Assembly: GCA_022548915.1 (NCBI GenBank)
Contig: JAKZES010000037.1
Span: 1-53,706 of the forward strand
DNA length: 53,706 nt
Source of the DNA: Verrucomicrobiaceae bacterium E54
GTDB lineage: Bacteria > Verrucomicrobiota > Verrucomicrobiia > Verrucomicrobiales > Akkermansiaceae
Direction: 5' to 3'
This document shows, piece after piece, positions 1,569-20,520 of the stretch. Position 1 is the first letter of the stretch, and every line of letters begins with the position of its first letter. The notes under the pieces are model-generated. The model had not been told where the DNA came from and made no database searches. It was given only the letters and a program-made list of their open reading frames with translations. The position numbers and the translations under genes were made by a program.

Positions 1569-2114
1569 ATGAGCGAGCAGCAATCCGTGGTGGTTAAAGT
1601 GTTTCTCTACCAGATCACGCCCCAGATCTGGCGCCGTTTTGAGATCCCCTCCGGCTTTACGTTTGAGAAGTTGAGCCAGACGATCCAGATGGCCATGGGC
1701 TGGGAGGACAAGCACCCTCACGAGTTCCGGCATGGCAAGGGCAAGCGGCTGGTTGACGTGATCGGCCCGGTGGGTCTCGAGGACCAGACTCCCGGCGAGT
1801 TTCAGGACGAAAAGAAGGTTGCCGTGCAGGATTTCATCGGGCGTCGCCGGTTGCCGATCCGTCTGCTTTACCGCTACGACTTCGCCGAGGACTGGATCCA
1901 CGAGATCGTCTTCGAGAAGAAGGGGGAAGGGGTCGATGAACCCCGGATGCTGGGTGGCGAGAGGGCTTGCCCGCCGGAGGACTTCGGCGGCGCGTTTCAG
2001 TACATGCAGGCCTTGAGCGGTGAGATCGCGTGGGATTATCCCGGCTACGATCCGGAAGCCTTTGATGCCGGCAAGGTGAGCCTCAAGCCGAAGCGGAAAC
2101 GGAAGTCCCGCTGA
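1569..2114 (+). CDS. Plasmid pRiA4b ORF-3-like family protein
   Basis: 181 residues. The N-terminal part (VFLYQITPQIWRRFEIPS, then a helix and GWEDKHPHEF) is the signature of the pRiA4b ORF-3-like fold, a small alpha/beta domain of unknown biochemical function found in chromosomes and plasmids. A second family block (YRYDFAEDWIHEIVFE, then ERACPPEDFGG) is also intact and a basic tail follows. The last 32 bases overlap the convergent ABC permease gene, so the two 3' ends share sequence. Confidence 0.85.
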   Translation: MSEQQSVVVKVFLYQITPQIWRRFEIPSGFTFEKLSQTIQMAMGWEDKHPHEFRHGKGKRLVDVIGPVGLEDQTPGEFQDEKKVAVQDFIGRRRLPIRLLYRYDFAEDWIHEIVFEKKGEGVDEPRMLGGERACPPEDFGGAFQYMQALSGEIAWDYPGYDPEAFDAGKVSLKPKRKRKSR

Positions 2115-7199: not shown

Positions 7200-7751
7200 C
7201 TATTTCTCGGAGGCGGCCGTCTCGACCGGTTTGGCGGGCGGGGCGCCGGGGATCGGCTTGAACTTGGTGACCATGTAGGTGCCGGTGGCGGCGATGAGGA
7301 TGCCGGCGACGAACTGCCAGGGGATGGCGGCGAGGCCGCCTTTCGGCGGGTGCATGGCGATGGAAACGATGGCATTCACGATGGGCGCACCAGCGAAGAT
7401 GATGGACATCACCGACACGGCGATGATCGCGGGCGGCATTCCGATCTTGGCGCCGGATCCCATGGCGAGCAGCACGCCGAAGGCCCCGAAGGCTCCGAGG
7501 GTGCCCGCCAGAAGCGACAGCCACATGCCCTTCGCGGGCATGTTCCAGTCCATGTTCTTCGAGAGCAGCAGCACCACCAGCGGGGCGAGGACGGCAACCA
7601 GGAAGTAGGCGATGCCGACGAAGAGGAAGGCCTTGTAGCGGCCGAGTTCTTTGTCGGCCATCCCGGCCTGGCCGGCGTGGAGGAAAATGCCGTACAGCCC
7701 CCAGCAGGAGACAGAGATGAGTGCGAAGTAGAGCCAGTTCATGTTTTTCAT
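7200..7751 (-). CDS. Small integral membrane protein, EamA/DMT-like half
   Basis: 183 residues with about five hydrophobic segments separated by short loops and a soluble tail (PIPGAPPAKPVETAASEK). Length and topology resemble a single EamA/GRP half-transporter, which would act as a dimer in the inner membrane. The similarity is general rather than motif-based. The stop is five bases before the start of the PaaK-like ligase, so the two are co-transcribed. It may move a substrate or product of the surrounding pathway. Confidence 0.6.
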   Translation of the reverse strand: MKNMNWLYFALISVSCWGLYGIFLHAGQAGMADKELGRYKAFLFVGIAYFLVAVLAPLVVLLLSKNMDWNMPAKGMWLSLLAGTLGAFGAFGVLLAMGSGAKIGMPPAIIAVSVMSIIFAGAPIVNAIVSIAMHPPKGGLAAIPWQFVAGILIAATGTYMVTKFKPIPGAPPAKPVETAASEK

Positions 7752-7784
7752 GGAGTGGGAAGTGATCCGTCGTCGCTCTACGAG

Positions 7785-8207
7785 CTATGACGGACAAGTC
7801 ATGGATTCGAGTTTGAGCTTGAGAACTTCGGGGAGGGGGACGGCCTTGATCCCGTCGGCGGTGATGGCGACGTGGGCGGCGGCGATGGAGCCTTCGGCGA
7901 CGAGGGTCTCATCCTTTGCGACCTCGAAGCGGTAGCGGACGGAGCGCTTGCGGACTTCGTCGATGAAGAGCCGGACGTCGAGCAGGTCGCCGAACCGGGC
8001 GGGAGCGCGGTAGTCGCAGGTGGCATGGACCCGCGGCCAGCCGGTTTCAAGGCCGTCGAGCATGCCGTGAAGTTCGTGGTCGAGGCTGCGCAGGAAGGCG
8101 TGCTCGCAGGCTTCCATGAAGCGGAAGAAATTCGAGAAGTGCACGATGCCCGCCATGTCGGTTTCGTAGAACTCGACGCGGCGCTGGATTTGGAAGACGG
8201 GCTTCAT
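7785..8207 (-). CDS. Acyl-CoA thioesterase, 4-hydroxybenzoyl-CoA thioesterase/YbgC type
   Basis: 140 residues from the ATG at 8207. The hotdog-fold motif YETDMAGIVHFSNFFRFMEA near the N-terminus contains the catalytic Asp and the central helix. This family hydrolyses aryl- or acyl-CoA thioesters in the cytoplasm. The longer open frame upstream mirrors the glycosyltransferase gene and is not coding. Lying between two activating enzymes, it could release the finished acid or edit wrongly loaded acyl groups. Confidence 0.88.
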   Translation of the reverse strand: MKPVFQIQRRVEFYETDMAGIVHFSNFFRFMEACEHAFLRSLDHELHGMLDGLETGWPRVHATCDYRAPARFGDLLDVRLFIDEVRKRSVRYRFEVAKDETLVAEGSIAAAHVAITADGIKAVPLPEVLKLKLESMTCPS

Positions 8208-8277
8208 GGCTGGATGGATTGAACCGGAAAGACGCGATCGAGGCAAAGGATGGATGAGGCCGGGTCCGCTGGTGAGG

Positions 8278-9564
8278 TCAGAGGAGTGGCTGGGCGAGTG
8301 CCAGAAAGCGATCCCGCATCGCCTCGACACTATAGGTTTCCCGGGCGGCGCGAAGGGCGTTTTCGCGGTAGGTTGAGAGGCGGGGCTCGTCGTTGAGCAG
8401 TTCGTGCCAGGCGGTGGCGAGGGCGACTGGATCATTGGGTTCGCAGAGGACCCCGGCCTGGCTGCTCTCGAGGATTTCGGGAAAGGACGAGGCACGCGGT
8501 TTCACCAGTGGCAGGCCGGCGGCGAGTGCCTCGATGGCGTAGAGGCCGAAGGCCTCGTGGTAGGTGGCCGGCACGCTGAATAGCGTCAGGCGGGAGAGGA
8601 AGTCGGCCTTGCGGTCGTGGTCGAGGTTGGGCGACCAGGTGACCTGTCCGGCAAGGCCGGCCTGTTTGAGGCGCTGCTTGAGTTCTCGGACGAGTGCCTT
8701 GTCACCCTCGGTCTCCGAGCCGGCGATGTGGAGGCGGGCGTCGGGGTGGCGGAGTTCGAGGTGGAGATGGATGAAGGCATCGACCAGAAGCTCGACGCCC
8801 TTCGAGCGGATTATGCGGGCGAGGTAGCCGATGGTGGGCGGGGAGATGGAAGATGGTGGATGGTGGATGGTGGATGGAAGCTTCACGCCATTGGGCATGA
8901 CGGTGATGTTGAGATCGGGTGCTTCCAGGCGTTCCCGGATGAAGCCGGCGTAGTATTGGCTGGGGGCAACGAGCAGGTCGGAGTCGGTGAGGCGCACCTT
9001 CATTTCCGCCCAGCAATCGGTCCGGTAGGGCTCGGGCAGACCGTCGAGGAAGCTGTCCTCGCCCTGGAAGGTGGTGATGACCTTGCAGCGGAGCCGTTCC
9101 TTGAGGGTGCGGGTGAAGCCGACGAGCAGCGCATTGGAAAGAACGACGATGTCGGGCGGGTTGCGCTCGAGCCAATCGAGGAGCTTGGCGGTTTCCTTGG
9201 CGAAGGCGCTGTGCTCCAGGTCGAGCATGGCGAGAGTCATTTCTCCATGTTCGCGGGGCGAGGTCATGTGGCTCCGCTTTGCGGCGGCGCGGAGAAGCCC
9301 GGTGCCGTTGAGCAGCCGGTCCAGCCACGCGGGCGAGTGGCGGAACCACTTGATCTTCTGCTGGAGGAAGACGTTGATGCCGCCGAAGAAGATCGGGGTC
9401 TCAGGCTGGTCGAGACGGCTTTCGTCGAGCTCAAGCGGGAGATACATCGGCAGCAACGAGACCTCGTGCCCGGCGGCGAGCAGCGACTTCGCGAGGGCGT
9501 TGTCGCGCATGCAGGCCCCACAGTAGTAGGAGCCGGTGCCGGGAGTGAGGAAGGCGATGTTCAT
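8278..9564 (-). CDS. Glycosyltransferase family 4
   Basis: 428 residues from the ATG at 9564 (MNIAFLTPGTGSYYCGACMR). GT-B architecture: the N-terminal acceptor domain ends near PNGVKL, and the C-terminal nucleotide-sugar domain begins at PPTIGYLARI and carries the E-x7-E motif in EAFGLYAIEALAAG. The linker between domains (about residues 229-240, STIHHPPSSIS) is encoded by a tandem ggtggatggt repeat and looks like an in-frame insertion. It would transfer a sugar to a lipid or small molecule at the cytoplasmic membrane. Its presence suggests the pathway product is glycosylated. Confidence 0.88.
   Translation of the reverse strand: MNIAFLTPGTGSYYCGACMRDNALAKSLLAAGHEVSLLPMYLPLELDESRLDQPETPIFFGGINVFLQQKIKWFRHSPAWLDRLLNGTGLLRAAAKRSHMTSPREHGEMTLAMLDLEHSAFAKETAKLLDWLERNPPDIVVLSNALLVGFTRTLKERLRCKVITTFQGEDSFLDGLPEPYRTDCWAEMKVRLTDSDLLVAPSQYYAGFIRERLEAPDLNITVMPNGVKLPSTIHHPPSSISPPTIGYLARIIRSKGVELLVDAFIHLHLELRHPDARLHIAGSETEGDKALVRELKQRLKQAGLAGQVTWSPNLDHDRKADFLSRLTLFSVPATYHEAFGLYAIEALAAGLPLVKPRASSFPEILESSQAGVLCEPNDPVALATAWHELLNDEPRLSTYRENALRAARETYSVEAMRDRFLALAQPLL
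8845..8880. repeat. In-frame short tandem repeat in the glycosyltransferase linker
   Basis: Repeated tggatggtgga units lie inside the coding sequence and give a His/Pro/Ser-rich segment exactly between the two Rossmann domains. A similar ggatgg-rich stretch is intergenic at 50314-50346. Confidence 0.7.
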
Positions 9565-9580
9565 TTTGGAGAGAATGGGA

Positions 9581-9606
9581 CCGCAAAGACGCGAAGACGC
9601 CAAGGC
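9581..9606. repeat. Intergenic direct-repeat word (gcaaagacgcgaagacgcc)
   Basis: A short run of imperfect gacgc-aag units lies just upstream of the glycosyltransferase start. A longer member of the same family is at 46001-46036. It is not a palindrome and has no coding potential that can be supported. Confidence 0.6.
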
Positions 9607-9615
9607 TGGGGTGGA

Positions 9616-10122
9616 TCAGGGAGAGGTGAGCTTCTTCCAGATTTCGCCTTCTTCGGCCTTGAAGTTGGGAAAGGGTGCTTGGCCGTTGCGGCAGATCACG
9701 AATCCGACAGACGTTAGATAGGCTTCGGCATTGGCTTGCTGACAAGACTCAATGAGTGCCTCGGTCCAAGGGATATCTGTGCGTTTAAGTTGGCGGATCA
9801 TCGCGAACTCAGGGTGGGGTTGGTCGTTCTCGCGCACCTTGGTCACAATCGAGACTCCCCTGTATTCCGGATCCGTATCCCTATCCAATTCAATCGCCCT
9901 TATGCTCAGGTAATCCATCGCTTCCCAGAGCGTTGTGTCTTCGAAATCGATGACGGGAATGATGATGCGGTCGAGCTTGGCAAGGATGGCATCTCCGGGG
10001 TTTGCCGGGCCTTCGCTAATTTCGTGTTCCGACTCGGGAACGGGGGTTGGCTTTGTCCTGTCGCAGGAGCAAAGGGACACTGCGGCGAGAATTGAGAGGA
10101 TGCCGACAGTGTGGGGGATCAT
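9616..10122 (-). CDS. Small putative lipoprotein with secretin-associated N-terminal-like domain
   Basis: 168 residues. The hydrophobic N-terminus ends in SLCSC, a non-canonical lipobox, so it is secreted and perhaps lipidated. The block KLDRIIIPVIDFEDTTLWEAMDYLSIRA resembles the short domain seen in verrucomicrobial and planctomycete secretin-type proteins. No enzyme motif is seen. Base composition is visibly poorer in GC than the neighbours. The SD-like AGGAG sits two bases before the ATG. It interrupts an otherwise metabolic gene run and may be a later arrival. Confidence 0.65.
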   Translation of the reverse strand: MIPHTVGILSILAAVSLCSCDRTKPTPVPESEHEISEGPANPGDAILAKLDRIIIPVIDFEDTTLWEAMDYLSIRAIELDRDTDPEYRGVSIVTKVRENDQPHPEFAMIRQLKRTDIPWTEALIESCQQANAEAYLTSVGFVICRNGQAPFPNFKAEEGEIWKKLTSP

Positions 10123-10155
10123 GGCTCCTGGAGGAGAGAGTGGGATTCGGCTGTC

Positions 10156-10267
10156 TGTGGCATGACCGTCCCGGTCATGATAGGAGCGCGAGGCCGACCG
10201 GGAGGCGATCTCCCACTTCGATGATGTTGCTATCGAGGCACTTCATGACCGGGACGGTCATGCCACA
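10156..10267. repeat. Inverted pair of palindromic elements (REP family D)
   Basis: A 25-base sequence at 10156-10180 (tgtggcatgaccg...) recurs perfectly in inverted orientation at 10243-10267. Each copy is itself a hairpin (catgaccg / cggtcatg). The 62-base spacer has no reading frame of note. Neither copy has a T-run, so this is a BIME-like repeat rather than a terminator. It fills the gap between the lipoprotein and flavoprotein genes. Confidence 0.85.
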
Positions 10268-10277
10268 GGTAGGTGGT

Positions 10278-11534
10278 TCAGGCTTGTACGGCAACTCGTC
10301 CATAGTCCAAGGGCTCGGGGAGGTCGGCGAGTTCGGCGATGGCTTGGGAAAGGTCGGTGTAGTCCTGGCCGTCGACGTTGCCGATGAGCAGGTCGGTGAG
10401 CTTCGGGCGGAGGTCCGGATGCTTGCGGATCAGTTTAGCGAAGCTGAACTGCCGGTCGTAGAAGGCATAGACGATCTTGCGCATCGTCTCGATGTGGCCG
10501 CAGAGGTTCTCGCCGTAGTCGGCGAAGGCGGTGGCGCGGGTATCGCCGTTTGTCAGGGCCTCGGCGGTGGCGTCGGCAGCCATCTCGGCGGACTTGAGGG
10601 CGAGGAAGACGCCGCTGGAGAAGACCGGATCCAGAAAGGCGAAGGCGTCGCCGACCAGCACCAGCCCATCGCTGGCGCAATGCTCTGCGCGGTACGAATA
10701 CTCGCCGGCGATCCAGTATTCACCAAACTGCTCGCCCTCGGAGAGGTGCTCCTTGATCCACGCGTTGTTCTCGATTTCCCGGGCGTAGATCTCGGCGGGG
10801 TCGCGGGTTTCGCCGGGGCGGTAGAGGTAGTCGCGCTCGGCGACGATGCCCGAGCTGACGACCCCGTTGCGCAGCGGGATGTTCCAGAACCATCCGCCTT
10901 CGGGAAGGTAGGCGATGGTGGTGGCCCCTTCGTCGAGACCGGGGTCGCGCTTGGCGTCCTTGAACAGGGTCCAGATCGAGATCTTGTTCAGCATGGGGTC
11001 GCGCTTGCGCCAGCCGTGCTTGCGCTGGAAGAGCGCGTCGCGGCCCGTGCAGTCGAGGGTGACCTTGGCGGTGACCTCGAAGGCATCCTCGTCGCCGGTG
11101 CGGGCCTTTACGCCAAGCACGCGACCGCTGTCGTCCTTGAGGAAATCCAGGGCCGTGGTGTTCTCGCGGACCTCGGCGCCCTTGTCGCGGGCGTTGTCGA
11201 GGAGCATGAGGTCGAAATGCTCGCGCTCGACCTGCCAGGTGGTGGCGGCGGGGTGGTCGAAGTGTTGGAAGAAATAAAAGGGTGCCGAGATGCGGCCGTC
11301 GGTGGTGGCGAACTGGACCGACTTCTTCTGCTGATAGCCGATTTCATCCATGCGGTCGGCGACGCCGAGGCGGTCGAGCGTGAACCAGCAGAATGGCATG
11401 AGCGACTCGCCGACGTGGTAGCGCGGGAACTGGGTTTTCTCGAGAAGCAGCACGCGGTGGCCCTGCTCCGCGAGGAGCGCGGCGCAGGTGCTGCCGGCAG
11501 GGCCACCACCGAGGACGAGGGCGTCGTAATTCAT
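10278..11534 (-). CDS. FAD-dependent oxidoreductase of the flavin halogenase / geranylgeranyl-reductase family
   Basis: 418 residues. GGGPAGSTCAALLA at residues 8-21 binds FAD; FPRYHVGESLMP and LVGDAFAFLDPVFSSGV are hallmark blocks of the tryptophan-halogenase-like group. A WFWNIP hexapeptide satisfies the halogenase W-x-W-x-I-P motif. Many members of this group are reductases or hydroxylases rather than halogenases, so the reaction is left open. Cytoplasmic, needing reduced flavin. It follows the chorismate-lyase-like gene in transcription order, so an aromatic substrate is plausible. Confidence 0.85.
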   Translation of the reverse strand: MNYDALVLGGGPAGSTCAALLAEQGHRVLLLEKTQFPRYHVGESLMPFCWFTLDRLGVADRMDEIGYQQKKSVQFATTDGRISAPFYFFQHFDHPAATTWQVEREHFDLMLLDNARDKGAEVRENTTALDFLKDDSGRVLGVKARTGDEDAFEVTAKVTLDCTGRDALFQRKHGWRKRDPMLNKISIWTLFKDAKRDPGLDEGATTIAYLPEGGWFWNIPLRNGVVSSGIVAERDYLYRPGETRDPAEIYAREIENNAWIKEHLSEGEQFGEYWIAGEYSYRAEHCASDGLVLVGDAFAFLDPVFSSGVFLALKSAEMAADATAEALTNGDTRATAFADYGENLCGHIETMRKIVYAFYDRQFSFAKLIRKHPDLRPKLTDLLIGNVDGQDYTDLSQAIAELADLPEPLDYGRVAVQA

Positions 11535-11584
11535 GACTCTCGAATTCTGGAATGGGTTGAGGTGAGGGGAGGATTGGTGAGTTC

Positions 11585-11660
11585 CGTTCGTAGTTCCGCC
11601 TTCAGGCGGTTGCGGTGTTTGGACCGCCTGAAGGCGGAACGACGTACATCACTGGCGGGC
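11585..11660. repeat. Inverted pair of palindromic elements (REP family A)
   Basis: gtagttccgccttcaggcgg (11590 onward) faces an inverted copy, accgcctgaaggcggaac (11623-11640), followed by a conserved trailer ctggcgggctt. Other family members are at 20437, 24376 and 39617. The right-hand copy ends at the stop codon of the chorismate-lyase-like gene. Confidence 0.85.
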
Positions 11661-11661
11661 T

Positions 11662-12198
11662 TCATGGGTTCGGCAGGATTTCGAGGATACGGGCGAGGAC
11701 GCGTCCATCGCCCCAGGACAGGGTATTATAGCGCCCGTAGAGATCCGCGCCACCGGAGGATGCCGGAAAAAGCCGGGCCAGCGGCGCGCGGGGCACGGTG
11801 TAAAAGCCCTGAGGGGCGCTGAGGTAGGGAATCCCGGACTCGTTGAGGATGGTGCCGAGCGGGGTTTGTTCATCGACCACCCGTTGCCGCTGCTCGGTGG
11901 GAAAGGTGTCGAGGTGCATCACGATGAGTCCGTATTCGACCGGCCTGCCGTCGGCGGCGGTGTCGAGGGTGACTTCGCGGCGGTAGAGGTCGCCGTCCAG
12001 GGCGGAGCGCAGGACCGTGAGCGCGATCACGTCGCCGTGGAAGTCGCCCAGCGAGGTGGTCATGTCGCGGTCGTGGACGAGCAGGTCGCGCTGGGGTGAC
12101 GGCACTTCATCGCCACGCACCCAGCCGAGGTCGACTCCATCGAGGAGCGAGCCCTTGAGGAAGGGGGTGAGTTCGGCGGCGAGGGTGGGGTGGGTCAT
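11662..12198 (-). CDS. Chorismate-lyase-like protein
   Basis: 178 residues. The run LLVHDRDMTTSLGDFHGD, then a Arg-Glu-Val strand, GRPVEYGLIVMHLD and PLGTILNESGI follow the order seen in UbiC/chorismate-lyase-fold proteins, in which chorismate is split to an aromatic acid and pyruvate. Overall identity to UbiC would be low, so the assignment is to the fold rather than a proven activity. If active it would supply 4- or 3-hydroxybenzoate to the two adenylating enzymes in the cluster. REP elements lie directly at both ends of the gene. Confidence 0.55.
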   Translation of the reverse strand: MTHPTLAAELTPFLKGSLLDGVDLGWVRGDEVPSPQRDLLVHDRDMTTSLGDFHGDVIALTVLRSALDGDLYRREVTLDTAADGRPVEYGLIVMHLDTFPTEQRQRVVDEQTPLGTILNESGIPYLSAPQGFYTVPRAPLARLFPASSGGADLYGRYNTLSWGDGRVLARILEILPNP

Positions 12199-12203
12199 GG
12201 TTT

Positions 12204-12257
12204 GTGGCTGCGGCTGGAAGCCGCAGAAACAGCCTGCGGCTGGAAGCCGCAGCCACC
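12204..12257. repeat. Two tandem hairpins (REP family B)
   Basis: ctgcggct-gga-agccgcag occurs at 12208-12226 and again at 12234-12252, framed by gtgg/ccac so the whole unit is also palindromic. There is no T-run. It fills the entire space between two genes. A diverged pair of the same kind lies inside a coding sequence at 14777-14818. Confidence 0.88.
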
Positions 12258-12258
12258 G

Positions 12259-13578
12259 TCAGACGAGCTTGTCGGTGACGTGCTGCGGCAGGAAGAAGTC
12301 GTGGAGCAGGTTGTCGACGCAGAGCAGGCCGTCGCGGTTGAGGATGATCTCGCCGTCCTCGATGGTGAGCCATCCTTCCTGGCGGAGATTGGCGAGCTGC
12401 GGGGCGAACTTTTCGAGGATGTCGACGCCGAACTTTTCCTGGAACGGTGCGGCGGCGACGCGGCCGAGCTTCATCTGCAGGATGAACTGCCGGATCAGCA
12501 TCTCTTCGGGCGTCGTCTGCAGGGCGCGCTGCACCGGCAGGCGACCGGCATCGAGGGCCGCGTCGTAGTCGTCGATCTCGGTGAGGTTCTGGTAGTGGAC
12601 GCCCTTGGCGTGCGAGATCGAGGCGACCCCGAGGCCGAGCAGGTCGGCTCCGCCCCAGAGCGCGTCGCGGTAGATGAACTTGGTGCGTTCCGGATCGAGC
12701 ACGGCGGTGTAGCCGGAGCCGATCGTGTAGCCGGCGGACTCGAGTGCGGCGAAGGCATCCTTGACCCAGCGGCGCTTGGTTTCCCAATCGGCGATCGGGG
12801 CGATCAGGCTGCCGCTGGCCTTCATGTCCTTGTAGATGCCGGTGTTGTAGGGCACCTCCATCTGATAGATTGTGACCGAGTCGGGGCGCAGCTCGAGGGT
12901 CTTCTCGATGTTGCGTTGCCAGTTTTCCTCGGTTTCCTCAACCATGCCGGCGATGAGATCGATGTTGATCTGGTCGAAGTTCTCGGCCTGGGCACGCTCA
13001 TAGGCGCGCCAGACTTCCTTGGTCCGGTGGGCGCGGCCGTTGATCTCGAGGATGCGGTCGTCGAAGTTCTCGATGCCGAGCGACAGGCGGGTGACCCCGA
13101 GGTCCTTGATCGCGCTGAGCTTGCCGGGATTCAGGGTGCCGGGCTCGCATTCGAAGGCGACCTCCTCGGCCTCGTCCCACGGCAGCAGGGCCTTCATCCG
13201 GTCGGTGAGTTCCTTGAGCTGTTTCGCGGAGAGGTAGGAGGGAGTGCCCCCGCCGAAGTAAACGAAGTGCGGCTTGCGGCCCTCGATGAGCGGTTTCTTC
13301 GCCATCATCTCCAGCTCGCGCACGGTGCAGTCGAGGTAGTGCTTGATGTCGTCCGCGTTCTTGTCGGTGTAGACCCGGAAGTAGCAGAAGTGGCAGCGCT
13401 TCCGGCAGAAGGGGATGTGGTGGTAGAGCCCGAGCGGCGGCGGGTCCCCGTCGTGGGGTGCCGAGTACGCTTGCTCCACCAGGGCCTCCTGGTCTTTCTT
13501 CCAGAAGGAGAAGGGCGGGTAGTTCGAGATGAAGTAGTTCCCGGCGCGGGTCGCTTTCTTGGTGGCGGTGTCGGGCAT
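12259..13578 (-). CDS. Radical SAM protein, coproporphyrinogen III oxidase (HemN/HemW)-like
   Basis: 439 residues from the ATG at 13578. The cluster motif CRKRCHFC (Cys 58, 62, 65) has the radical SAM C-x3-C-x2-C spacing; GGGTPSYLSAKQL, the SAM-binding segment ECEPGTLN and the C-terminal winged-helix-like part are as in HemN/HemW. HemW proteins bind haem, while HemN-like members also include methyltransferase and cyclopropane enzymes. It sits in the middle of the acid/aldehyde/alcohol gene run, so a biosynthetic role is as likely as haem metabolism. Confidence 0.8.
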   Translation of the reverse strand: MPDTATKKATRAGNYFISNYPPFSFWKKDQEALVEQAYSAPHDGDPPPLGLYHHIPFCRKRCHFCYFRVYTDKNADDIKHYLDCTVRELEMMAKKPLIEGRKPHFVYFGGGTPSYLSAKQLKELTDRMKALLPWDEAEEVAFECEPGTLNPGKLSAIKDLGVTRLSLGIENFDDRILEINGRAHRTKEVWRAYERAQAENFDQINIDLIAGMVEETEENWQRNIEKTLELRPDSVTIYQMEVPYNTGIYKDMKASGSLIAPIADWETKRRWVKDAFAALESAGYTIGSGYTAVLDPERTKFIYRDALWGGADLLGLGVASISHAKGVHYQNLTEIDDYDAALDAGRLPVQRALQTTPEEMLIRQFILQMKLGRVAAAPFQEKFGVDILEKFAPQLANLRQEGWLTIEDGEIILNRDGLLCVDNLLHDFFLPQHVTDKLV

Positions 13579-13643
13579 GAGCTTGAGGCTACGGGTGATG
13601 GGGTGTCTGGCTTTCGCTGAGGCGGACTGGAATGTCCGCCCGC

Positions 13644-14840
13644 TCAACGAACCACGAAAACGGTGCCCTCGCCACCGGCAATGATGAGGTGTCCGCCCGC
13701 GAAGATCGGGGCGGCGGTGAGTTTTTCGCCGAGATCGAGGCGCCAGAGCTCCTTACCGGATGTCGGATCAAGGGCATAGAGGCGCCCGTCGCTGGAGCCG
13801 AAGACGACCGCATCGTCGAAGACAATGGGCGAGGACTCGATGCGGCCGCCGGTGGGAAAGGTCCACGCGCCGGTGCCATCGGCGCGCTTGATCGCGTGCA
13901 GCGCCTTGTCGCGACAGCCGATGTAGACGTGATCGTCATCCACCGCCGGGGCGGAGAAGAACGGGAAGTCGTCGCTTTGATAGATCCAGGTCGGCTCGGT
14001 GGCGTCGGACTCGGCGGCGACGACCTGATTGGCGTAGTTGGCGGCGTAGAGCGTGTTGCCGGCGGTAGCGATGGAGTCGGTGATCTGCGACTCGGTGGGG
14101 ATGGCATTCAGCTTTTCGCCGGTCCCGGCGTCGAGCACGTGCAGCACCGTGTCACATCCTCCGAAGGCGAGCTTGCCATCGACGAGTGCCGGGGTGCCGT
14201 TGATGTAGTCCTGCGTTTCGTAGGTCCAGAGGACAGTGCCGTCGGCGGGATCGAGGCAGCGGGTGGTGCCGTCGTAGCCGTTGACGACGAGCCGCAGCGA
14301 GCCGTCGGGGCCCGGGATCAGGTTGGGCGCGGAGGAGAATTTCTCATTGCCGCCGATGCTCCAGATCTTGTCTCCGGTCTTCAAGTCGAGGGCATGGAAG
14401 GATCCATCGCCGGAGCCGACGAAGACGCGGTCCTCATGAATGGCCGGAGCCGCTTCGATGGTGTCCTCGGTCTCGAATTTCCAGAGCAGTTCGTGGGTCT
14501 CGAAATCGATGGCGTAGAGGAAGCCCATGACGTCGCCGACGACGATGACGTCCGTGGTGGCCGCGGCTTCGGCGGTGCCGGGGGAATCGAGGGTGAAGGT
14601 CCAGGCGACTTCGGGCGAGTGCGGGGCGGGACCGGAAACCCTGCCGGAGAGGGACGGGCCACCCCGGGTGATGGGCCAGGGGGTGGAAGACAGGGTGGTT
14701 TCGGTGGCAACAGCTTCCTGAGTGGGAAGCTCGTGGTTGGAGTCGCAAGCGAGGAGCAGTAGAAAGAGACCGGAGCAGGATGCTCCGGAGACGGCCTGCG
14801 GCAGGATGCCGCAGCGACCTTCGCGACGCTGGCGCTTCAT
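13644..14840 (-). CDS. PQQ-type beta-propeller lipoprotein
   Basis: 398 residues. The ATG at 14840 overlaps the stop of the alcohol dehydrogenase gene (ATGA). The signal sequence ends in LLLLAC with the lipidated Cys at residue 32. It is followed by at least seven WD-like PQQ blades (for example SGDGSFHALDLKTGDKIW, SSDGRLYALDPTSGKELW). The BamB/PQQ-like fold acts as a scaffold or binding protein in the envelope; no PQQ dehydrogenase catalytic residues were recognised. Residues about 8-22 are encoded by a REP hairpin pair, so the signal peptide has been extended by a repeat. Confidence 0.88.
   Translation of the reverse strand: MKRQRREGRCGILPQAVSGASCSGLFLLLLACDSNHELPTQEAVATETTLSSTPWPITRGGPSLSGRVSGPAPHSPEVAWTFTLDSPGTAEAAATTDVIVVGDVMGFLYAIDFETHELLWKFETEDTIEAAPAIHEDRVFVGSGDGSFHALDLKTGDKIWSIGGNEKFSSAPNLIPGPDGSLRLVVNGYDGTTRCLDPADGTVLWTYETQDYINGTPALVDGKLAFGGCDTVLHVLDAGTGEKLNAIPTESQITDSIATAGNTLYAANYANQVVAAESDATEPTWIYQSDDFPFFSAPAVDDDHVYIGCRDKALHAIKRADGTGAWTFPTGGRIESSPIVFDDAVVFGSSDGRLYALDPTSGKELWRLDLGEKLTAAPIFAGGHLIIAGGEGTVFVVR
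14777..14818. repeat. REP family B hairpin pair inside the PQQ-lipoprotein coding sequence
   Basis: Two consecutive hairpins, ccggagca-gga-tgctccgg and ctgcggca-gga-tgccgcag, share the GGA loop and size of the intergenic pair at 12204-12257. Here they encode GRCGILPQAVSGASC in the n-region of the signal peptide. Confidence 0.8.
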
Positions 14841-15961
14841 GACACGGGGGCGGTAAGGGCGGACTCGTAGAGGGAGGTGAGGACCTCCGGGGTGAGTGGC
14901 CGCGGGTTGAAACGGCCGGTCCATTGCCCGAAGGCATCGGCCACGAGTTGGGGGATCACATCCGGGGGGACTTCCGCGGGGGGGAGATTCGCGAGCGCGA
15001 GGACATGGTCGATCCAGTCGGGAAGGGACTGCCCGAGGTGATGGCTGAGGTCCCCGTACTTGGCCGCGGCGTCGCGACAGCCCATGTTGAAGCGGACGAC
15101 GTGGGGCAGCATCGTCCATACGGCGAGGCCGTGGGGCAGATTGTAGCGGGCGGTGAGCGGGTTGGCGGTGGCGTGGGCCGCGCCCAGCATGCTGTTCTCA
15201 ATCGCGGATCCGGCCATTGCCGCGCCAAGCAGGAGCTGGGCGCGGTCGCAGTCGGAGGGAGTGCCGGTCAGCAGGCTCTCGATCGAGTCGGACAGCAACT
15301 TGAATGCCTGGCGGGAATAGGCGGAGGAAACCGGGTTGTGCTTGGTGCTGACCGCCGACTCGATCGCGTGGGACAGCGCGTCGAGCGCTGCGAGCGTGGC
15401 GACGAATTCAGGCTGCGACGCGGTCAGTTCGGGATCGAGCAGGGCGATGCGGGCGAGTGCCTTGGGGTCGCCGCAGGCCATTTTTTCATGGGTCCCGTCG
15501 CGGGCGAGGACGGTGTAGGACTGGCATTCGCTGCCGGTTCCGGCGGTGGTCGGCACGGCGATGAAGGGCAGCATCGGCGCGGTGGCGTGACCGTAGCCAT
15601 GGAAGTCGCTCATCCGCTTGTCCGGATGGCTCAGCAGGAAGTTGCAGCCCTTGGCGGTGTCGAGGCTGCTGCCGCCGCCGAGACCGATGATGAGGTCGGG
15701 CCGGACCCTCGCGGCGAAGTCGCGGCATTCGGCGACGTCGCTTTCGGTGGGATTGACCTGGCTTTCCTCGAAGACATCCGGGCGGAGCCCCGCGTTTCCC
15801 AGCAGGGTCGCGGCACGCTCGACATGGCCGGCGGCGACGATGCCGGGATCGGTGATGATCAGGGGTTTCGACGCGCCCAGCGCACGCACGCACTCGGGCA
15901 GCTCGGCGAGGCGGCCGGGCCCGAAGAGCAGGCGGGGGCAGGGTCGGGTGTCGAAGTTCAT
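14837..15961 (-). CDS. Iron-containing alcohol dehydrogenase (group III)
   Basis: 374 residues. GGGSSLDTAKG binds the NAD(P) pyrophosphate, TTAGTGSECQSYTVL and the metal-binding region with DALSHAIES and NLPHGLAVW supply the conserved His ligands. These cytoplasmic enzymes interconvert alcohols and aldehydes or ketones. Downstream coupling to the PQQ lipoprotein (4-base overlap) and the ALDH-family gene upstream point to a shared aldehyde intermediate. Direction and substrate are unknown. Confidence 0.92.
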   Translation of the reverse strand: MNFDTRPCPRLLFGPGRLAELPECVRALGASKPLIITDPGIVAAGHVERAATLLGNAGLRPDVFEESQVNPTESDVAECRDFAARVRPDLIIGLGGGSSLDTAKGCNFLLSHPDKRMSDFHGYGHATAPMLPFIAVPTTAGTGSECQSYTVLARDGTHEKMACGDPKALARIALLDPELTASQPEFVATLAALDALSHAIESAVSTKHNPVSSAYSRQAFKLLSDSIESLLTGTPSDCDRAQLLLGAAMAGSAIENSMLGAAHATANPLTARYNLPHGLAVWTMLPHVVRFNMGCRDAAAKYGDLSHHLGQSLPDWIDHVLALANLPPAEVPPDVIPQLVADAFGQWTGRFNPRPLTPEVLTSLYESALTAPVS

Positions 15962-16021
15962 GCGAATGGCCGCTGAGCGGCAGTGACGAGTGCCAAGTGA
16001 GAAGTGGAAAGTGCCTGGAGT

Positions 16022-17443
16022 CTAGACGGTGGCCACGTTCCCCTGGATGGCGCGGCGGTGGTAGAGGAACTCGAAGAGGTTGCCTTCGTGGGGTTGCTCC
16101 CACTGGACGCGGTTGGTCGGGAAGGGACCGAGGTTGAGGCGCTCGATGTCGGGGCTGAGCAGGAGCTGGTGGATGAAATCCTGGTCCTCGGTGAAGGCGC
16201 TGACGACGAGGGTTTGACCGATGTTTCCGAGCATTGCCGCCTGCGGCATCTCGACGATGCTGGCGTAGGGGAACATGAACTCGGTGTTGGCCAGAGGATG
16301 GTCGGGGTCGCTGCAGGCGACGAGGGTGGGCTGGAGGTAGACCTGATCGAAGGCCTCGATCTTGCGTGGTCCCTCGCGGTGGCGGGCGGTGAAGTCCTCG
16401 GCACCGGGCTCCTTGAGGTGGGCGGTGATGAGGTCGTCGATGCCGTCGGCCAGGGCGGAGTTGGCAAAGCCGCAGAGCAGCGCGCATTCGTGGTCGCGGG
16501 GCAGCGGCGTGATCTTCGCCAGCTCGGCGGCGAGGGCGTCGGCGATCGCATCGCGATGGCGCGGCACGAGGATCGCGGAGGTGTTGATGCACGAGCGGCC
16601 GCCGTTGGCGGAAATCGACTCGACGAGCACCGGGAGAAATTCCTCCCAGCGATCGATCATGTCCTCGCCGATGAGAATTTTCGAGCGGCCGGTACCGTGG
16701 ACCGAGACGCTCGGGTAGGCGGCGTATTTCTGCACCGTGGCATCGGAGCCAAAGGAGATCCCGCGGCCGCAGCAGGTGACGATGGTGTCGCCCCCTTCGT
16801 GGGTGGTCGGATAGTAGCCGAAGGCCTCCTTCGGGAAGCCGGCGGCGATCATCGCCTGGACGATGCGCAGAGGGGTGAAGGGATCTTCGCGGCCGGGCTT
16901 GAGCATCACCGGGATCTTCATCACCGGAGCCGGGATCCAGAGCGAGTTGACCGCCGGGGCGTTGCTCGGCAGCGAGACGCCGAGGGAGTTGGTGGTCGGG
17001 TAGTAGTTGACCGAAAGGTCATCGAGCCGCGTCAGGCCGGCGTCGAAGATCTCGAGCGGCATGCCGCGGGTGAGACCACCGATGACGGTGCGCACCTGCG
17101 ACATGGCGGCGTGAACCTTGGTCATGTTCATCCGCACCAGGCTGTGGGGCAGGCGGGTGAGCGCGGAAAGGGCTTCGACGTAGCCATCGGGCGACTGGGT
17201 CGTGTCGCCGCAGGGGAGCTCGGCATGCAGGAACAATTCCGCGGCCTCCTCGCAGAAACCCGCGAGCGTGTCGGCGGGGATGGCGTCGAGGGTGGCCTTG
17301 GCTTCACCGATGCGCAGCAGGTCGCGACGGATCAGTCCCGGGTTGGCGGTGTGGGTGACGGCCACTTGCCCGCCGCCGAGGTCGAGGTCGACGCGGTCGC
17401 AGGACTCGTAGGTCCGGCCGAGGCGGAGGATGGGAAGGTGCAT
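16022..17443 (-). CDS. Aldehyde dehydrogenase-superfamily protein (possible acyl reductase)
   Basis: 473 residues. The motif GGRSCINTSA places the catalytic Cys at 285, and KILIG together with PVMLKPGREDPFTPLRI mirrors the ALDH cofactor domain. Length and Cys position are close to the LuxC acyl reductases (about 480 residues). The next gene upstream in transcription order is LuxE/PaaK-like. It could therefore reduce an activated acyl group to an aldehyde, or oxidise an aldehyde. The classic ALDH NAD motif is not well conserved, which favours an unusual subfamily. Confidence 0.75.
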   Translation of the reverse strand: MHLPILRLGRTYESCDRVDLDLGGGQVAVTHTANPGLIRRDLLRIGEAKATLDAIPADTLAGFCEEAAELFLHAELPCGDTTQSPDGYVEALSALTRLPHSLVRMNMTKVHAAMSQVRTVIGGLTRGMPLEIFDAGLTRLDDLSVNYYPTTNSLGVSLPSNAPAVNSLWIPAPVMKIPVMLKPGREDPFTPLRIVQAMIAAGFPKEAFGYYPTTHEGGDTIVTCCGRGISFGSDATVQKYAAYPSVSVHGTGRSKILIGEDMIDRWEEFLPVLVESISANGGRSCINTSAILVPRHRDAIADALAAELAKITPLPRDHECALLCGFANSALADGIDDLITAHLKEPGAEDFTARHREGPRKIEAFDQVYLQPTLVACSDPDHPLANTEFMFPYASIVEMPQAAMLGNIGQTLVVSAFTEDQDFIHQLLLSPDIERLNLGPFPTNRVQWEQPHEGNLFEFLYHRRAIQGNVATV

Positions 17444-17449
17444 GGGAAT

Positions 17450-17478
17450 TGATCAGTGAGCGGTGATCAGTGTTAGAT
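17450..17478. repeat. Intergenic word repeat (gtgatcagtg family)
   Basis: The sequence gatcagtgagcggtgatcag lies between the ligase and ALDH genes. Close relatives occur at 20133-20163 and, inside the end of the ABC ATPase gene, at 5287-5312. Confidence 0.65.
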
Positions 17479-18549
17479 TCAATAGACCCCCTCGATGACG
17501 GTCTTGGTGCCGGACTGGAAGGGGCGGACGTCGCCGACGCCGTCCCAGGGGAATTCGTCGCAGGGTTGGCGGCGGATGGCTTCGTCGCGTTCGAGGAAGC
17601 GGGGCATGAAGAACTCCTTGGTCAGGGTGGTGAGCTCGACGCGGCCGTAATCGCCGTAGTCCATGAGGCGGTCGGTGTTTTCCGGATCGACGATGCGCAG
17701 GACGGCTCGCGGCTGCGGGGCGTGATAGGTCAGGCTGTATTCGCCGGGGGCGCGCTTCTTCGAGATGGCCAGGCCCATGAGGGTGTTGCCGTAGGTCGGG
17801 GCGAAGTTGATCCTGCCCTCGAGCACCTCCTCCTCGATGAAGCGGACATACTGGGGAGTCATGGTGGTACCGCCGGCGAAGACCCCGCGGATGCCGGCGT
17901 CGACCAGCGACATGCGCTCGGCGAGGCTCTCGAGCAGCTTGGGCGTGGTGAAGAGGCAGCCGATGTCGCGGTGGCGAATGATGGTGGCGGCCTGGTCGAT
18001 GACGTGTTCCTGGTAGGCCTTGGCCATGCGCATCTCGCCCATGCCGATGAGGCGCTTCACCCAGCGCGGGTCGAGATCGATGAAGTAGCAGGCGCCGCCG
18101 CGGAGGTTGGCGAGGTGCTCGATGGCGAGGCGCAGGCGCCGCGGTCCGGTCGGGCCGACCATCAGCCAGTTGGCACCCTGCGGGAAGAAGTCGGGCCCGT
18201 AGTGCTCGGAGAATTCGGTGTAGTCGGTCTTGTAGTCGTCCCAGCCGATCCGCTGCTTGGGCATGCCGGTGGTGCCGCCGGTTTCGAAGACGTTGTAGGG
18301 CCGGCCCTCGAAGGCTTTCGGGATGAAACGGGCCGGATCCTCCTTGCGCAGGATCTCGTCGTCGAAGTGGGGAAACTGGAGGAGCTGGTCGAAGCTCTCG
18401 ATGGCGAGCGGGTCGAAATCAAGCGTCCGGGCCTGCTCGAGCCAGTACGGGCAGCCGGTGTCGGGCGAGAAATGCCAGCGGACGATTTCCCGGACGTGGG
18501 CGTCGAGGGCATCGGCGGCGGCTTCGGGGGTGGCGGGGCGGTCGGGCAT
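17479..18549 (-). CDS. Acyl-activating enzyme, LuxE / phenylacetate-CoA ligase-like
   Basis: 356 residues from the ATG at 18549. The longer open frame upstream only mirrors the symporter gene. FETGGTTGMPKQRIGWDD is the AMP-binding loop, and FAPTYGNTLMGLA plus the C-terminal DYGDYGRVELTTLTKEFF follow the PaaK/LuxE plan. The protein lacks the full C-terminal lid of CoA ligases, a trait of LuxE acyl-protein synthetases. It would adenylate a carboxylic acid and hand it to CoA or to a protein Cys, plausibly that of the neighbouring ALDH-fold enzyme. Confidence 0.75.
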   Translation of the reverse strand: MPDRPATPEAAADALDAHVREIVRWHFSPDTGCPYWLEQARTLDFDPLAIESFDQLLQFPHFDDEILRKEDPARFIPKAFEGRPYNVFETGGTTGMPKQRIGWDDYKTDYTEFSEHYGPDFFPQGANWLMVGPTGPRRLRLAIEHLANLRGGACYFIDLDPRWVKRLIGMGEMRMAKAYQEHVIDQAATIIRHRDIGCLFTTPKLLESLAERMSLVDAGIRGVFAGGTTMTPQYVRFIEEEVLEGRINFAPTYGNTLMGLAISKKRAPGEYSLTYHAPQPRAVLRIVDPENTDRLMDYGDYGRVELTTLTKEFFMPRFLERDEAIRRQPCDEFPWDGVGDVRPFQSGTKTVIEGVY

Positions 18550-18620
18550 GGCAATGGTCGGACAGGTAAGACGGATGGGGTATCCCGCAAGTGGTGTCAG
18601 CCGGGAGGGACCGACCTCCT

Positions 18621-20129
18621 TCAGGGGAAAAATCTCGCGACGCTCTCGGCGGACGGGGGTTTGGTGGCGAGGGAGACGCCGATCATGGCGACGGCCCCCG
18701 CCAGCCAGCAGATGGCGACGGGCATGATGCCGCCGAAGACGGTGAACTCGCCGCCAAATCCGGACATGGCGAAGAAGATGAACCAGCTGCCGGCGGTGGC
18801 GATGACGCTGGCGTAGGCGCCGGCCTTGGTGGCGCGCCGCCAGTAAAGGGCGGCGAGCACCAGCGGGGTGAGCGCGGCAAAACCGGAGAAACACCAGACC
18901 GCGAGGTCGAAGACGTTCTTGTCGAAGAGGAGCAGGGAGAGCAGGTAGGTCAGGGCGACGATGCCGACGATGAAGCCCCGCGCGATGAACATGATCTGCT
19001 TGTCGCTGAACTGGCGCTTCGAACCGTGGAGAACGATGTCGTTGGTGAACATCGTGCCGAGACAGAGGAACTGGGAGTCCAGCGAAGACATGATCGCCGC
19101 GAGGATGCCGGCGGTGACGAGCCCGACGATGACCGGGTCCTTGACGAGGATGCCGATCATTTTTGCCAGCACCGCGCCGGGGGTGGCGTCGGGCGGAAGG
19201 ACCCCGGTGGCCCAGATGCCGATGAGCACGCAGGGCACCCAGACGATGGCGATGCAGATCGGGTGGGCGACGACCGTGAGCTTGAAGGACTTCGCGCTGC
19301 GCGCGGTCAGCCAGTGCTGGAACAGGTGGGGAAACATCCCGACGCTCAGTGGGATGAACATGTAGGTCAGGAAGGTGACGGGCGAGACGCCGGCGTGGCC
19401 GCTTTCCGTGCGGACGAGGTGGCTCGCCTTGGCCTGCTCGATGGCCGGGCCGAGGCCGCCGAGCTTGTTGGAGATCATGGTGAAGGCGAGGATGCCCATC
19501 GCCATGAAGACGAGGGTCTGGAAGGTGTTGGCCCATGCCGCCGCACGGGATCCGCCGGCAAAAACGTAGCCGAGGACCACCAGGCAGATCACCGCACCGG
19601 TGATCCACGGCGGAATGGCACCGTTGGTCGCTTCGAAGAGTTCGGGAAAGAGACCGGGCTTGGGACCCTTGGGGCCGGTGAGGCCCATCATGGTCTTGCC
19701 CGCGCCGATCACCCCGATCAGCAGGTAGGGGATGACCAGCAGGACGAGGATGGGGAAAAGCAGGTAGCCGAAGCCGTTCGACTCGAAGCGCCCGCGGAAG
19801 AACTGGATCTGGGTGACGAAGCCGTGGCGCTTGCCGATGGCCCAGAGGCGGATGCCGATGACGAAGAAGCACGCGGCGTGGATGAGGCCGGAAGACGAGG
19901 CCATCAGCCCGTAGGTCCCGACGCCGAGCTCGAAGGCCTTGCCGGTGGAGCCGACCAGCGCGAAGGCGGTCATGGTCGTGCCGAAGACCGACATCAGCAG
20001 CATGAACGGCCCGATCGAACGGCTGGCCACGAAGTAGTCGGCACTGGTTCCCCGGAAGAATTTCTTCGACCCGAGCGCGAAGATCAGCAGCAGCCCGAGG
20101 TAGGCGAGGATGATGTAGATGGGAGTCAT
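18621..20129 (-). CDS. Sodium:solute symporter (SSS family)
   Basis: 502 residues with about thirteen hydrophobic helices. FGTTMTAFALVGSTGKAFELG in the first helices and SLDSQFLCLGTMFTNDIV are conserved SSS blocks that include the Na+ site. Imports a solute with Na+ across the inner membrane; the substrate is not predictable but carboxylates are common in this branch. It is preceded by a small DUF3311-type protein (21-base gap), a frequent partner of these symporters. Confidence 0.9.
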   Translation of the reverse strand: MTPIYIILAYLGLLLIFALGSKKFFRGTSADYFVASRSIGPFMLLMSVFGTTMTAFALVGSTGKAFELGVGTYGLMASSSGLIHAACFFVIGIRLWAIGKRHGFVTQIQFFRGRFESNGFGYLLFPILVLLVIPYLLIGVIGAGKTMMGLTGPKGPKPGLFPELFEATNGAIPPWITGAVICLVVLGYVFAGGSRAAAWANTFQTLVFMAMGILAFTMISNKLGGLGPAIEQAKASHLVRTESGHAGVSPVTFLTYMFIPLSVGMFPHLFQHWLTARSAKSFKLTVVAHPICIAIVWVPCVLIGIWATGVLPPDATPGAVLAKMIGILVKDPVIVGLVTAGILAAIMSSLDSQFLCLGTMFTNDIVLHGSKRQFSDKQIMFIARGFIVGIVALTYLLSLLLFDKNVFDLAVWCFSGFAALTPLVLAALYWRRATKAGAYASVIATAGSWFIFFAMSGFGGEFTVFGGIMPVAICWLAGAVAMIGVSLATKPPSAESVARFFP

Positions 20130-20132
20130 GAA

Positions 20133-20163
20133 GTGCCGAGTGAGCGGTGATCAGTGATCAGTG
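20133..20163. repeat. Word repeat (gtgatcagtgatcagtg)
   Basis: It spans the gap between the small DUF3311 gene and the symporter and contributes the last codons (T-D-H-stop) of the DUF3311 protein. Confidence 0.7.
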
Positions 20164-20387
20164 GACTCATCCGAGCCTTCCGCCCACTTCTCCAGGTTCG
20201 AGGGCCAGGCGAAGCGGGTGACCAGCGCCCAGAAAACGGCGGCGGTCAGCGAGTAGCCGGCGTGGTAGGCGAGGCCGACCGGGAGGAAGCCGAAGACAAG
20301 ATCCGCGTTGTCCCAGTTCCACACGTCCTGATGCAGGATGGCAAGGACGATGAAGACGATCGTGGCGACGAGGACGGCGGGTTTCAT
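20151..20387 (-). CDS. DUF3311-type small membrane protein, symporter partner
   Basis: 78 residues from the ATG at 20387; the frame upstream of that is a translated repeat. Two hydrophobic helices contain the family pattern ILHQDVWNWDNADLVFGFLPVGLAYHAGYS. DUF3311 proteins are commonly encoded directly before sodium:solute symporters and are thought to be accessory subunits. The C-terminus (ESTDH) runs into a repeat word, which supplies the stop codon. Confidence 0.82.
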   Translation of the reverse strand: MKPAVLVATIVFIVLAILHQDVWNWDNADLVFGFLPVGLAYHAGYSLTAAVFWALVTRFAWPSNLEKWAEGSDESTDH

Positions 20388-20436: not shown

Positions 20437-20520
20437 GTTCCGCGACCCCCTGAAGGGGGAACTACCAACAATGGTGGCGGGCTTTTGTTGGGAACTTGGA
20501 CCTTATTCCTTGGAACTTCC
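20437..20520. repeat. REP family A copy followed by ggaactt word repeat
   Basis: The palindrome accccctgaagggggaact with trailer ggtggcgggctttt (20437-20485) is followed by ggaacttgg...ttggaactt (20491-20520). The second repeat encodes the last residues (GSSKE-stop) of the PQQ protein gene ending at 20503. Confidence 0.8.

Follow-up and report, generated by a model that had tools for sequence, protein, structure and literature searches.

A two-protein route for the reduction of aryl acids has been proposed for EhpF and EhpG, where EhpG is the label that we give here to the aldehyde dehydrogenase (ALDH) of Pantoea. For GriC and GriD, the study reportedly is Suzuki 2007, as cited in PMC10179220. 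According to the citing paper, GriC converts 3-amino-4-hydroxybenzoate into its acyl adenylate (acyl-AMP), whose reduction to the aldehyde is mediated by GriD (PMC10179220). A study on the Ehp proteins assigns the conversion of phenazine-1,6-dicarboxylate to the antibiotic to EhpF-O, except the transporter EhpJ (PMC3175449). Here, we analyzed a contig stretch of 53,706 nucleotides from Verrucomicrobiaceae bacterium E54 (genome 5.9 Mb, GC 65%; JAKZES010000037.1), the whole of which is called the window, and within it a run of minus-strand genes, called the unit. A single, seemingly ancient pathway, found in part of Verrucomicrobiota and built around a two-protein aryl-carboxylate reductase, is the best overall explanation of the unit, and we regard it as reasonably probable. 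The letters f, g, G, L, and C with a number are our labels for family, genus, genome, locus, and contig; the window's family is f1 and its contig is C186.

The ligase of the pair is encoded at 17479..18549. A profile of 10 of its relatives matched EhpF (PDB 3hgu/3l2k) at E 2.2e-57 over profile positions 9-351, and the PDB search with this profile gave no match besides EhpF (two deposited sequences) at E<=0.01. The protein carries the ATP loop TGGTTGMPK, and its C terminus coincides with that of the Pantoea EhpF-like protein, at EGVY. The ligase terminates where the Pantoea protein ends and therefore contains no coenzyme A (CoA)-transfer domain, indicating an EhpF-type adenylating enzyme without a C-terminal domain. 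The adjacent gene (16022..17443) encodes a 473-aa ALDH-fold protein, which is a distant member of its family (Pfam 3.3e-14). In ordinary ALDHs, a Glu acts as the general base and hydrolytic residue. In the window's protein, an invariant His249 aligns with this Glu, and the invariant Cys285 lies on the catalytic Cys in the best PDB alignment. Furthermore, the ALDHs encoded beside EhpF-like genes on Pantoea, Burkholderia, Halalkalicoccus, and Streptomyces plasmids kept the Cys in 4/4 cases and the Glu in 0/4, and some of the Streptomyces plasmid homologues are annotated as arylcarboxylate reductase. The missing Glu would fit acyl transfer and reduction, not aldehyde oxidation. Judged from these similarities, the ligase and the ALDH are highly likely to form a two-protein aryl-carboxylate reductase of the EhpF/EhpG or GriC/GriD type, which supports the acid-to-aldehyde chemistry suggested by the initial annotation of this region. 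The substrate is probably aromatic, to judge from what EhpF and GriC do and from the families to which the ligases belong, and it is fairly likely that the iron-containing alcohol dehydrogenase (Fe-ADH; 14837..15961; Pfam Fe-ADH 3e-45) acts on the aldehyde product. Two ligase-ALDH copies (L070 and L071) were observed in one Verrucomicrobiales assembly (CASICJ01). On NZ_CP076707.1 (10013-12372), a plasmid recorded as E. coli, an EhpF-like gene annotated as phenazine antibiotic biosynthesis adjoins an ALDH gene.

The distribution of the unit's proteins was analyzed in 387 genomes sampled evenly from the phylum, using thresholds that we set ourselves (ALDH, E<=1e-40; HemN-like protein, 1e-120; small membrane protein, 1e-12; chorismate-lyase-fold protein, hereafter ChLy, 1e-3). 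The ALDH, HemN-like protein, membrane protein, ChLy, EhpF-like ligase, flavoprotein, and PaaK-like ligase were the proteins profiled across genomes. The ALDH, HemN-like protein, and membrane protein were each found in 19/387 genomes, and these were the identical 19. ChLy was found in 17/387 genomes, all of them within the 19 carriers; the carriers without it were G352, where the spacing between the flavoprotein and HemN genes is too small, and G389, where the HemN gene lies at a contig end on the ChLy side. All candidates were then scored in a 30-genome set, which comprised the 19 carriers and 11 non-carriers selected from the window's genus or family. Here, the EhpF-like ligase, the PaaK-like ligase, and the membrane protein were each present in 19/19 carriers and 0/11 non-carriers. 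The flavoprotein was likewise present in 19/19 carriers (E 2.1e-120 or better), and 4/11 non-carriers had only distant relatives, at 8e-72 to 1.5e-73. If genomes were independent, two identical sets of 19 in 387 would have a chance of 1.3e-32; they are not independent, so this figure is not used as a probability.

The 19 carriers span seven families (f1, f4, f9, f37, f39, f44, and f80) and 13 genera, and the window's own genus holds carriers and non-carriers alike. In f4, unlinked copies occur. As observed in the f4 genome G041, the genes occupy six separate loci: the ligase at C2:282539, the ALDH at C2:398333, the flavoprotein at C2:709112, the HemN-ChLy pair at C10:120201, the membrane protein at C8:107787, and the PaaK-like ligase at C13:61073. 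Since carriers and non-carriers occur in one genus and the f4 copies are unlinked, relatedness is not an easy explanation of the shared distribution. The initial annotation had named scattered homologues as a sign against one pathway; scattering was partly seen in f4, but the profiled genes that are scattered there are all present together, which argues for a common pathway. The neighbors of the dispersed f4 copies were considered as possible members and rejected; they appear to be housekeeping genes (ornithine carbamoyltransferase, other amino-acid genes, tRNA nucleotidyltransferase, a class I tRNA synthetase, a lipoyl-ligase-like protein, and others). The genes of the unit could in principle be several unrelated operons that became neighbors by chance in the window's family, as might be suggested by their separation in f4 and by gaps of up to 155 bases within the run. 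However, genes that are unlinked in f4 have identical carrier sets, and we consider this the least probable of all the explanations. Thus, co-inheritance and synteny bear out the earlier proposal that the region encodes one pathway, and we hold this to be very likely.

Synteny was counted by tblastn, since the gene caller misread a few loci (e.g., L096, L115, L116, and L146). The 80 loci used are the best 80 of 540 matches and, for this reason, lean to close relatives; among them are Luteolibacter marinus (L059) and Haloferula rosea (L110), which both belong to the genus group of the window. The ALDH gene followed the ligase gene at 70 of the 73 loci with at least 1.5 kb beyond the ligase. Downstream of the ligase, 50 loci extended for at least 9 kb, and at these we detected the ALDH (48), Fe-ADH (45), propeller (46), HemN (36), ChLy (33), flavoprotein (25), and GT4 (30) genes. 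Upstream, where 49 loci extended for at least 8 kb, each of the two propellers was found at 38, the TonB receptor at 28, and the symporter and DUF3311 each at 21. The co-occurrence of LuxE-like ligase, ALDH, Fe-ADH, and HemN genes, which had been put forward as a check, was confirmed in that 38/80 loci held all four; the detected same-strand genes followed the window's order at 35/38, indicating that the grouping is not due to chance. Genomes of the window's family and of f9 have the run that reaches from the propeller genes as far as the exporter. Where the run is broken, three blocks recur: propellers-DUF3311-symporter-ligase-ALDH (L177, f80), propeller-HemN-ChLy (L149 and L150, f4), and thioesterase-membrane protein-PaaK-ABC-FtsX (L186, f4). 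At L156 (f39), propellers-ligase-ALDH-Fe-ADH lie beside HemN-ChLy-flavoprotein.

In the window, a codon-based gene call gave 19 consecutive minus-strand genes from 26444 down to 2083, flanked by plus-strand genes at both ends. Their order is TonB receptor, two propellers, DUF3311, Na+ symporter, EhpF-like ligase, ALDH, Fe-ADH, propeller, HemN-like protein, ChLy, flavoprotein, 168-aa protein, GT4, thioesterase, small membrane protein, PaaK-like ligase, ATP-binding cassette (ABC) ATPase, and FtsX permease, with intergenic gaps of -4 to 155 bases. Every gene named in the initial annotation was recovered on the minus strand. The extent of 7200-20387 given there was too narrow, leaving the PaaK-like ligase and the ABC/FtsX exporter outside, and its gene list omitted the core membrane protein (7200-7751), the 168-aa protein, the two upstream propellers, and the TonB receptor.

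The HemN-like radical S-adenosylmethionine (SAM) enzyme (12259..13578; Pfam Radical_SAM and HemN_C) contains CX3CX2C at Cys58/62/65 and showed 86% mean column identity over 9 sequences. It reached 200.7 bits against the TIGR00538 equivalog cut-off of 324.95, so it does not classify as a HemN coproporphyrinogen oxidase, and it scored alike against the HemN, HutW, and STM4012 models. NocN was the second of its two PDB matches. The CX3CX2C motif with a HemN-like architecture agrees with class C radical SAM methyltransferases, a feature that is not specific to that class; our best guess is that the enzyme carries out C-methylation of a ring. A second, more distant HemN-like copy was observed in G389 (C366:10394-11665). 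Searches of plasmids returned no match for the HemN-like protein (E<=1e-40) or for the membrane protein (E<=1e-3).

The adjacent ChLy (11662..12198) is predicted to adopt the chorismate lyase fold. Its AlphaFold2 (AF2) model has a predicted local distance difference test (pLDDT) score of 93.5, and the best Foldseek match was the DUF98 protein 2nwi (E 1e-6), followed by UbiC 1jd3 (E 5.2e-6). In contrast to this fold match, the ChLy sequence profile gave only a chance match (E 0.83) against solved structures. A ChLy homologue, annotated as hypothetical, was observed on Azospirillum plasmids (L167, 11860-15533; L168, 11956-15522), where it is followed by a short-chain dehydrogenase/reductase, pabB, and a class IV aminotransferase. 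The proximity to pabB ties the ChLy family to chorismate-using genes, and the Azospirillum neighborhood possibly makes a different chorismate-derived product. For the product of the unit, derivation from chorismate is a tentative suggestion, to which we give slightly less than even weight.

The flavoprotein (10278..11534) belongs to the CndH/CmlS/PltA halogenase clade. Its nearest solved relatives are halogenases (8zop, 9.3e-67; 3e1t, CndH, 1.2e-65; also ChlB4, PltA, and CmlS). The hallmark motifs of flavin-dependent halogenases are GxGxxG, a catalytic Lys, WxWxIP, and FxxPxxSxG, and all were found, as GGGPAG, Lys70, WFWNIP (215-220), and FLDPVFSSG (300-308). This family also includes non-halogenating members, and a true halogenase, as the motifs suggest, is a possibility that we lean somewhat against. 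The genome G041 was seen to hold a second close flavoprotein copy (C2:45099-46325).

The second acyl-activating enzyme, a PaaK-like aryl/acyl-CoA ligase (5983..7194), matched two NCBIfam PaaK models (7e-50 and 4e-48) and FlxY (7e-23), all under the cut-offs. In contrast to the EhpF-like ligase, it retains a C-terminal domain with the Lys motif FEVKARR. The small membrane protein upstream of it (7200..7751), with about four to five helices and no Pfam or NCBIfam match, gave a poor AF2 model (pLDDT 59), too poor for structure comparison; "DMT-like" is only a label for it. A YbgC-like hotdog thioesterase (7785..8207; Pfam 4HBT_2) is encoded next, and its gene lies near the membrane-protein gene, the PaaK-like gene, or both at loci of other families.

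An alternative product is an outer-membrane pigment of the aryl-polyene or flexirubin-like kind, made with a ketosynthase that is encoded in another part of the genome. The FlxY-like ligase score, the flavoprotein relative 3nix (which we take to be linked to flexirubin), the thioesterase, the glycosyltransferase, and the LolD-like exporter are consistent with such a pigment, and five ketosynthase matches were found in the genome, two of them within open reading frames 2792 and 3509 codons long. The one that we profiled, a stand-alone ketosynthase of 411 aa (C189; L169, 6836-9378), has an AMP-binding ligase beside it and an acyltransferase nearby, and is kept in the genus regardless of the pathway. 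However, its close relatives (73-78% identity) occurred in 6/11 non-carriers, and the f9 carriers had relatives of 39-41% identity only. Since its presence does not follow the carriers, it was rejected as a hidden partner. In Pfam and NCBIfam scans, none of the unit's proteins matched a ketosynthase or carrier-protein family, so the earlier statement that none is visible holds for the unit; the ketosynthase and carrier protein of an aryl-polyene or flexirubin cluster were thus found neither in the unit nor tracking it, as far as the one profiled ketosynthase of the five is concerned. The pigment is therefore very improbable. A carotenoid-acid route was also considered and dropped, as the unit's proteins include no carotenoid family.

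From the computed gene content, homologies, motifs, fold, and co-inheritance, we infer the substrates, reaction order, product, and transport direction of the proposed pathway as follows. The EhpF-like ligase would form the acyl-AMP of an aromatic acid in an ATP-dependent reaction. Since the ligase has no CoA-transfer domain, the acyl group would be passed from it to Cys285 of the ALDH-fold partner, which would reduce the thioester to the aldehyde with NAD(P)H; the Fe-ADH would then convert the aldehyde into a hydroxymethyl compound. The acid may derive from chorismate and be made or completed by ChLy, and its ring may be modified by the HemN-like enzyme and the halogenase-type flavoprotein. 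The PaaK-like ligase would convert this acid, or a second aryl acid, into its CoA ester, the thioesterase would break the ester, and the GT4 glycosyltransferase (8278..9564; Pfam Glycos_transf_1, 6.6e-29) would attach a sugar. The product may leave by way of the LolD/FtsX-like exporter and the small membrane protein, and at loci that encode them, the TonB receptor and Na+ symporter may recover the product or a precursor. The product might even be a cofactor or signal, aromatic in nature and confined to some Verrucomicrobiota, rather than an optional antibiotic, namely, a hydroxymethyl-aryl compound made by a new pathway that combines a radical SAM enzyme, a halogenase-type flavoenzyme, and a two-protein carboxylate reductase. 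In that case, a possible role of two acyl-activating enzymes would be that one half becomes an aryl alcohol and the other a CoA ester, and that both are joined as an aryl ester. This identity is speculative and rather unlikely; it is based on at least seven genes, mostly present in single copy, which selection would keep together even when they are dispersed among housekeeping genes in f4.

Two possible importers and one putative exporter are encoded in the unit, and the importers are not found at every locus. The TonB-dependent outer-membrane receptor (24426..26444; Pfam TonB barrel and plug) is the first gene, and the sodium:solute symporter (18621..20129; Pfam SSF) lies next to its small membrane partner DUF3311 (20151..20387; Pfam DUF3311). 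At the opposite end are a LolD-like ABC ATPase (5274..5981; NCBIfam LolD 4.6e-78, 261.7 bits, under the cut-off of 307.75) and the last gene, an FtsX/ADOP-like permease (2083..5277; Pfam FtsX, with a weak NCBIfam ADOP match). On the plasmids of Halalkalicoccus jeotgali (L163) and Halomarina (L166), we observed the symporter, EhpF-like ligase, and ALDH in the window's order, which suggests that a symporter can feed the reductase. Near L166, a propeller-type protein and a second weak ligase-like match were also present; none of the window's other proteins was seen near L163 or L166.

The TonB receptor, the Na+ symporter, and the haloarchaeal trio indicate that aromatic-acid uptake is also possible. 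An external aromatic acid could be imported through the TonB receptor and the symporter, detoxified or stored by reduction, and disposed of as a glycoside by GT4 and the exporter. In G114, a genome from another family, the ALDH and ligase likewise have the receptor and the SSF/DUF3311 pair beside them, and in carriers the ChLy gene has been lost or interrupted while the rest stays, as this explanation would allow. Nevertheless, the HemN-like protein, ChLy, and halogenase-type flavoprotein occur together in 17-19/19 carriers, which looks biosynthetic; no ring-cleavage family was found among the unit's scanned proteins, and the symporter is missing upstream at 28/49 loci. Uptake and conversion are, therefore, unlikely as the function of the unit.

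The position of the TonB receptor at the head of the unit, with the exporter at the other end, would also agree with a chorismate-derived metal chelator that is exported and re-imported. The best NCBIfam subfamily of the receptor is that of siderophore receptors, and the PaaK-like ligase matches bagremycin/ferroverdin synthetase (8.5e-21). However, the receptor scored 132.7 bits, under the cut-off of 223.5, and was upstream at only 28/49 loci. At 26/27 loci, including the window, no Fur-box-like site ahead of the TonB gene scored above the maximum of its shuffles; a site exceeding the shuffles was found at L100 only (14 matches against a maximum of 13). No assembly-line enzyme was found among the unit's proteins. 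A chelator is thus quite improbable.

Several results weigh against the proposed single pathway or against parts of it. In the survey of 387 genomes, scoring was limited to a few top candidates in each genome (up to 4 or 9), and the co-inheritance counts ignore the relatedness of the genomes. Ten genomes (f2 and f3) and one of f1 have the ALDH and no HemN in the fetched stretch, which was the only part covered. At the loci L062 to L080, the fetched stretch similarly contains the ligase and ALDH genes but no HemN gene, and of the 26 loci fetched first, HemN was in the stretch at 9 and missing at 17 (16 in other families of the order, and L027 in the window's family); six f4 genomes among those 16, which were included in the 387, have HemN elsewhere, and the other ten belong to f2 and f3. 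The ligase and ALDH genes are not adjacent in some f4 genomes; since they can be unlinked there, a fixed complex is not required. At the Opitutales loci L100, L108, and L109, the Fe-ADH directly follows the ligase, with no ALDH found in the stretch. Transport is not uniform, since the symporter is upstream at just 21/49 loci and the TonB receptor at 28/49. UbiC has the catalytic residues Arg76, Arg91, and Glu155. ChLy has the equivalent of Arg76 (Arg73), but Leu90 stands at the position of Arg91 and the C-terminal Glu is displaced by one residue relative to a Pro anchor. Because Leu90 replaces Arg91, we did not file ChLy as a chorismate lyase; it has no Pfam or NCBIfam match and may not be one. 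Furthermore, the ChLy gene is interrupted by stop codons in G271 (C1:57617-58084) and was not found in G352 (C20), both of genus g65, where the rest of the run is kept. Finally, gaps of 115-155 bases in the run leave room for internal promoters; a consensus scan of the run found none, and the consensus tells little in this organism.

Two PQQ/BamB-like beta-propeller proteins, PQQ3 (22042..24285) and PQQ2 (20503..22032), both with Pfam PQQ_2 and a hydrophobic N terminus, are probably secreted. A third propeller gene (13644..14840) overlaps the Fe-ADH gene by 4 bases, as the earlier claim of coupling implied. It had been described as a PQQ lipoprotein; the PQQ_2 assignment stood, but the lipoprotein part is only possible, as a Cys follows the hydrophobic N terminus and the strict lipobox pattern was unmatched. 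The 168-aa protein (9616..10122), with a hydrophobic N terminus and no Pfam match, is probably accessory and had a homologue at 3/26 loci (L022, L026, and L045). At L026 (6028-8610; G015), an 860-aa FG-GAP repeat protein was also observed between HemN and ChLy.

In the open-licence literature that we searched, this pathway was not described. All of its enzyme families are known, and there are precedents for the reductase; what appears new to us is the way in which they are combined, the spread of this combination across the phylum, and the fact that dispersed genes are inherited together. To our knowledge, no EhpF/GriC-type aryl-carboxylate reductase set has been reported in Verrucomicrobiota, where the present set would be the first, in association with a HemN-like radical SAM enzyme. 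Few chemical studies have dealt with this phylum, and several of the unit's proteins are without an assigned role. The identical carrier sets across seven families, clustered and dispersed, therefore make a clean case for a whole unnamed pathway and provide a testable gene list.

Compared with known systems, the unit resembles flexirubin and aryl-polyene clusters in aromatic activation, a flavoprotein, a thioesterase, and an exporter, and is unlike them in having neither ketosynthase nor carrier protein. The flavoprotein shares the fold family and hallmark motifs of the halogenases CndH (3e1t), CmlS (3i3l), and PltA (5dbj). ChLy shares its fold with UbiC and DUF98 and its Arg73 with UbiC, but differs in Leu90 and in the lack of a family-level sequence match. 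The closest resemblance to the proposed reductase is found in the two described pairs. GriC/GriD (grixazone, Streptomyces griseus) is similar by its description as a two-protein reduction of an aromatic acid through acyl-AMP; the homologues actually compared were those on Streptomyces plasmids, with ~35-39% (ligase) and 26-28% (ALDH) identity. EhpF/EhpG (D-alanylgriseoluteic acid, Pantoea agglomerans plasmid) showed identity of ~32-33% (ligase) and 23-25% (ALDH); no phenazine genes are present in the unit, and the remaining pathway differs. Nevertheless, the unit and the Ehp system both have an adenylating enzyme without a C-terminal domain adjoining an ALDH-fold partner that keeps the catalytic Cys and has no Glu.

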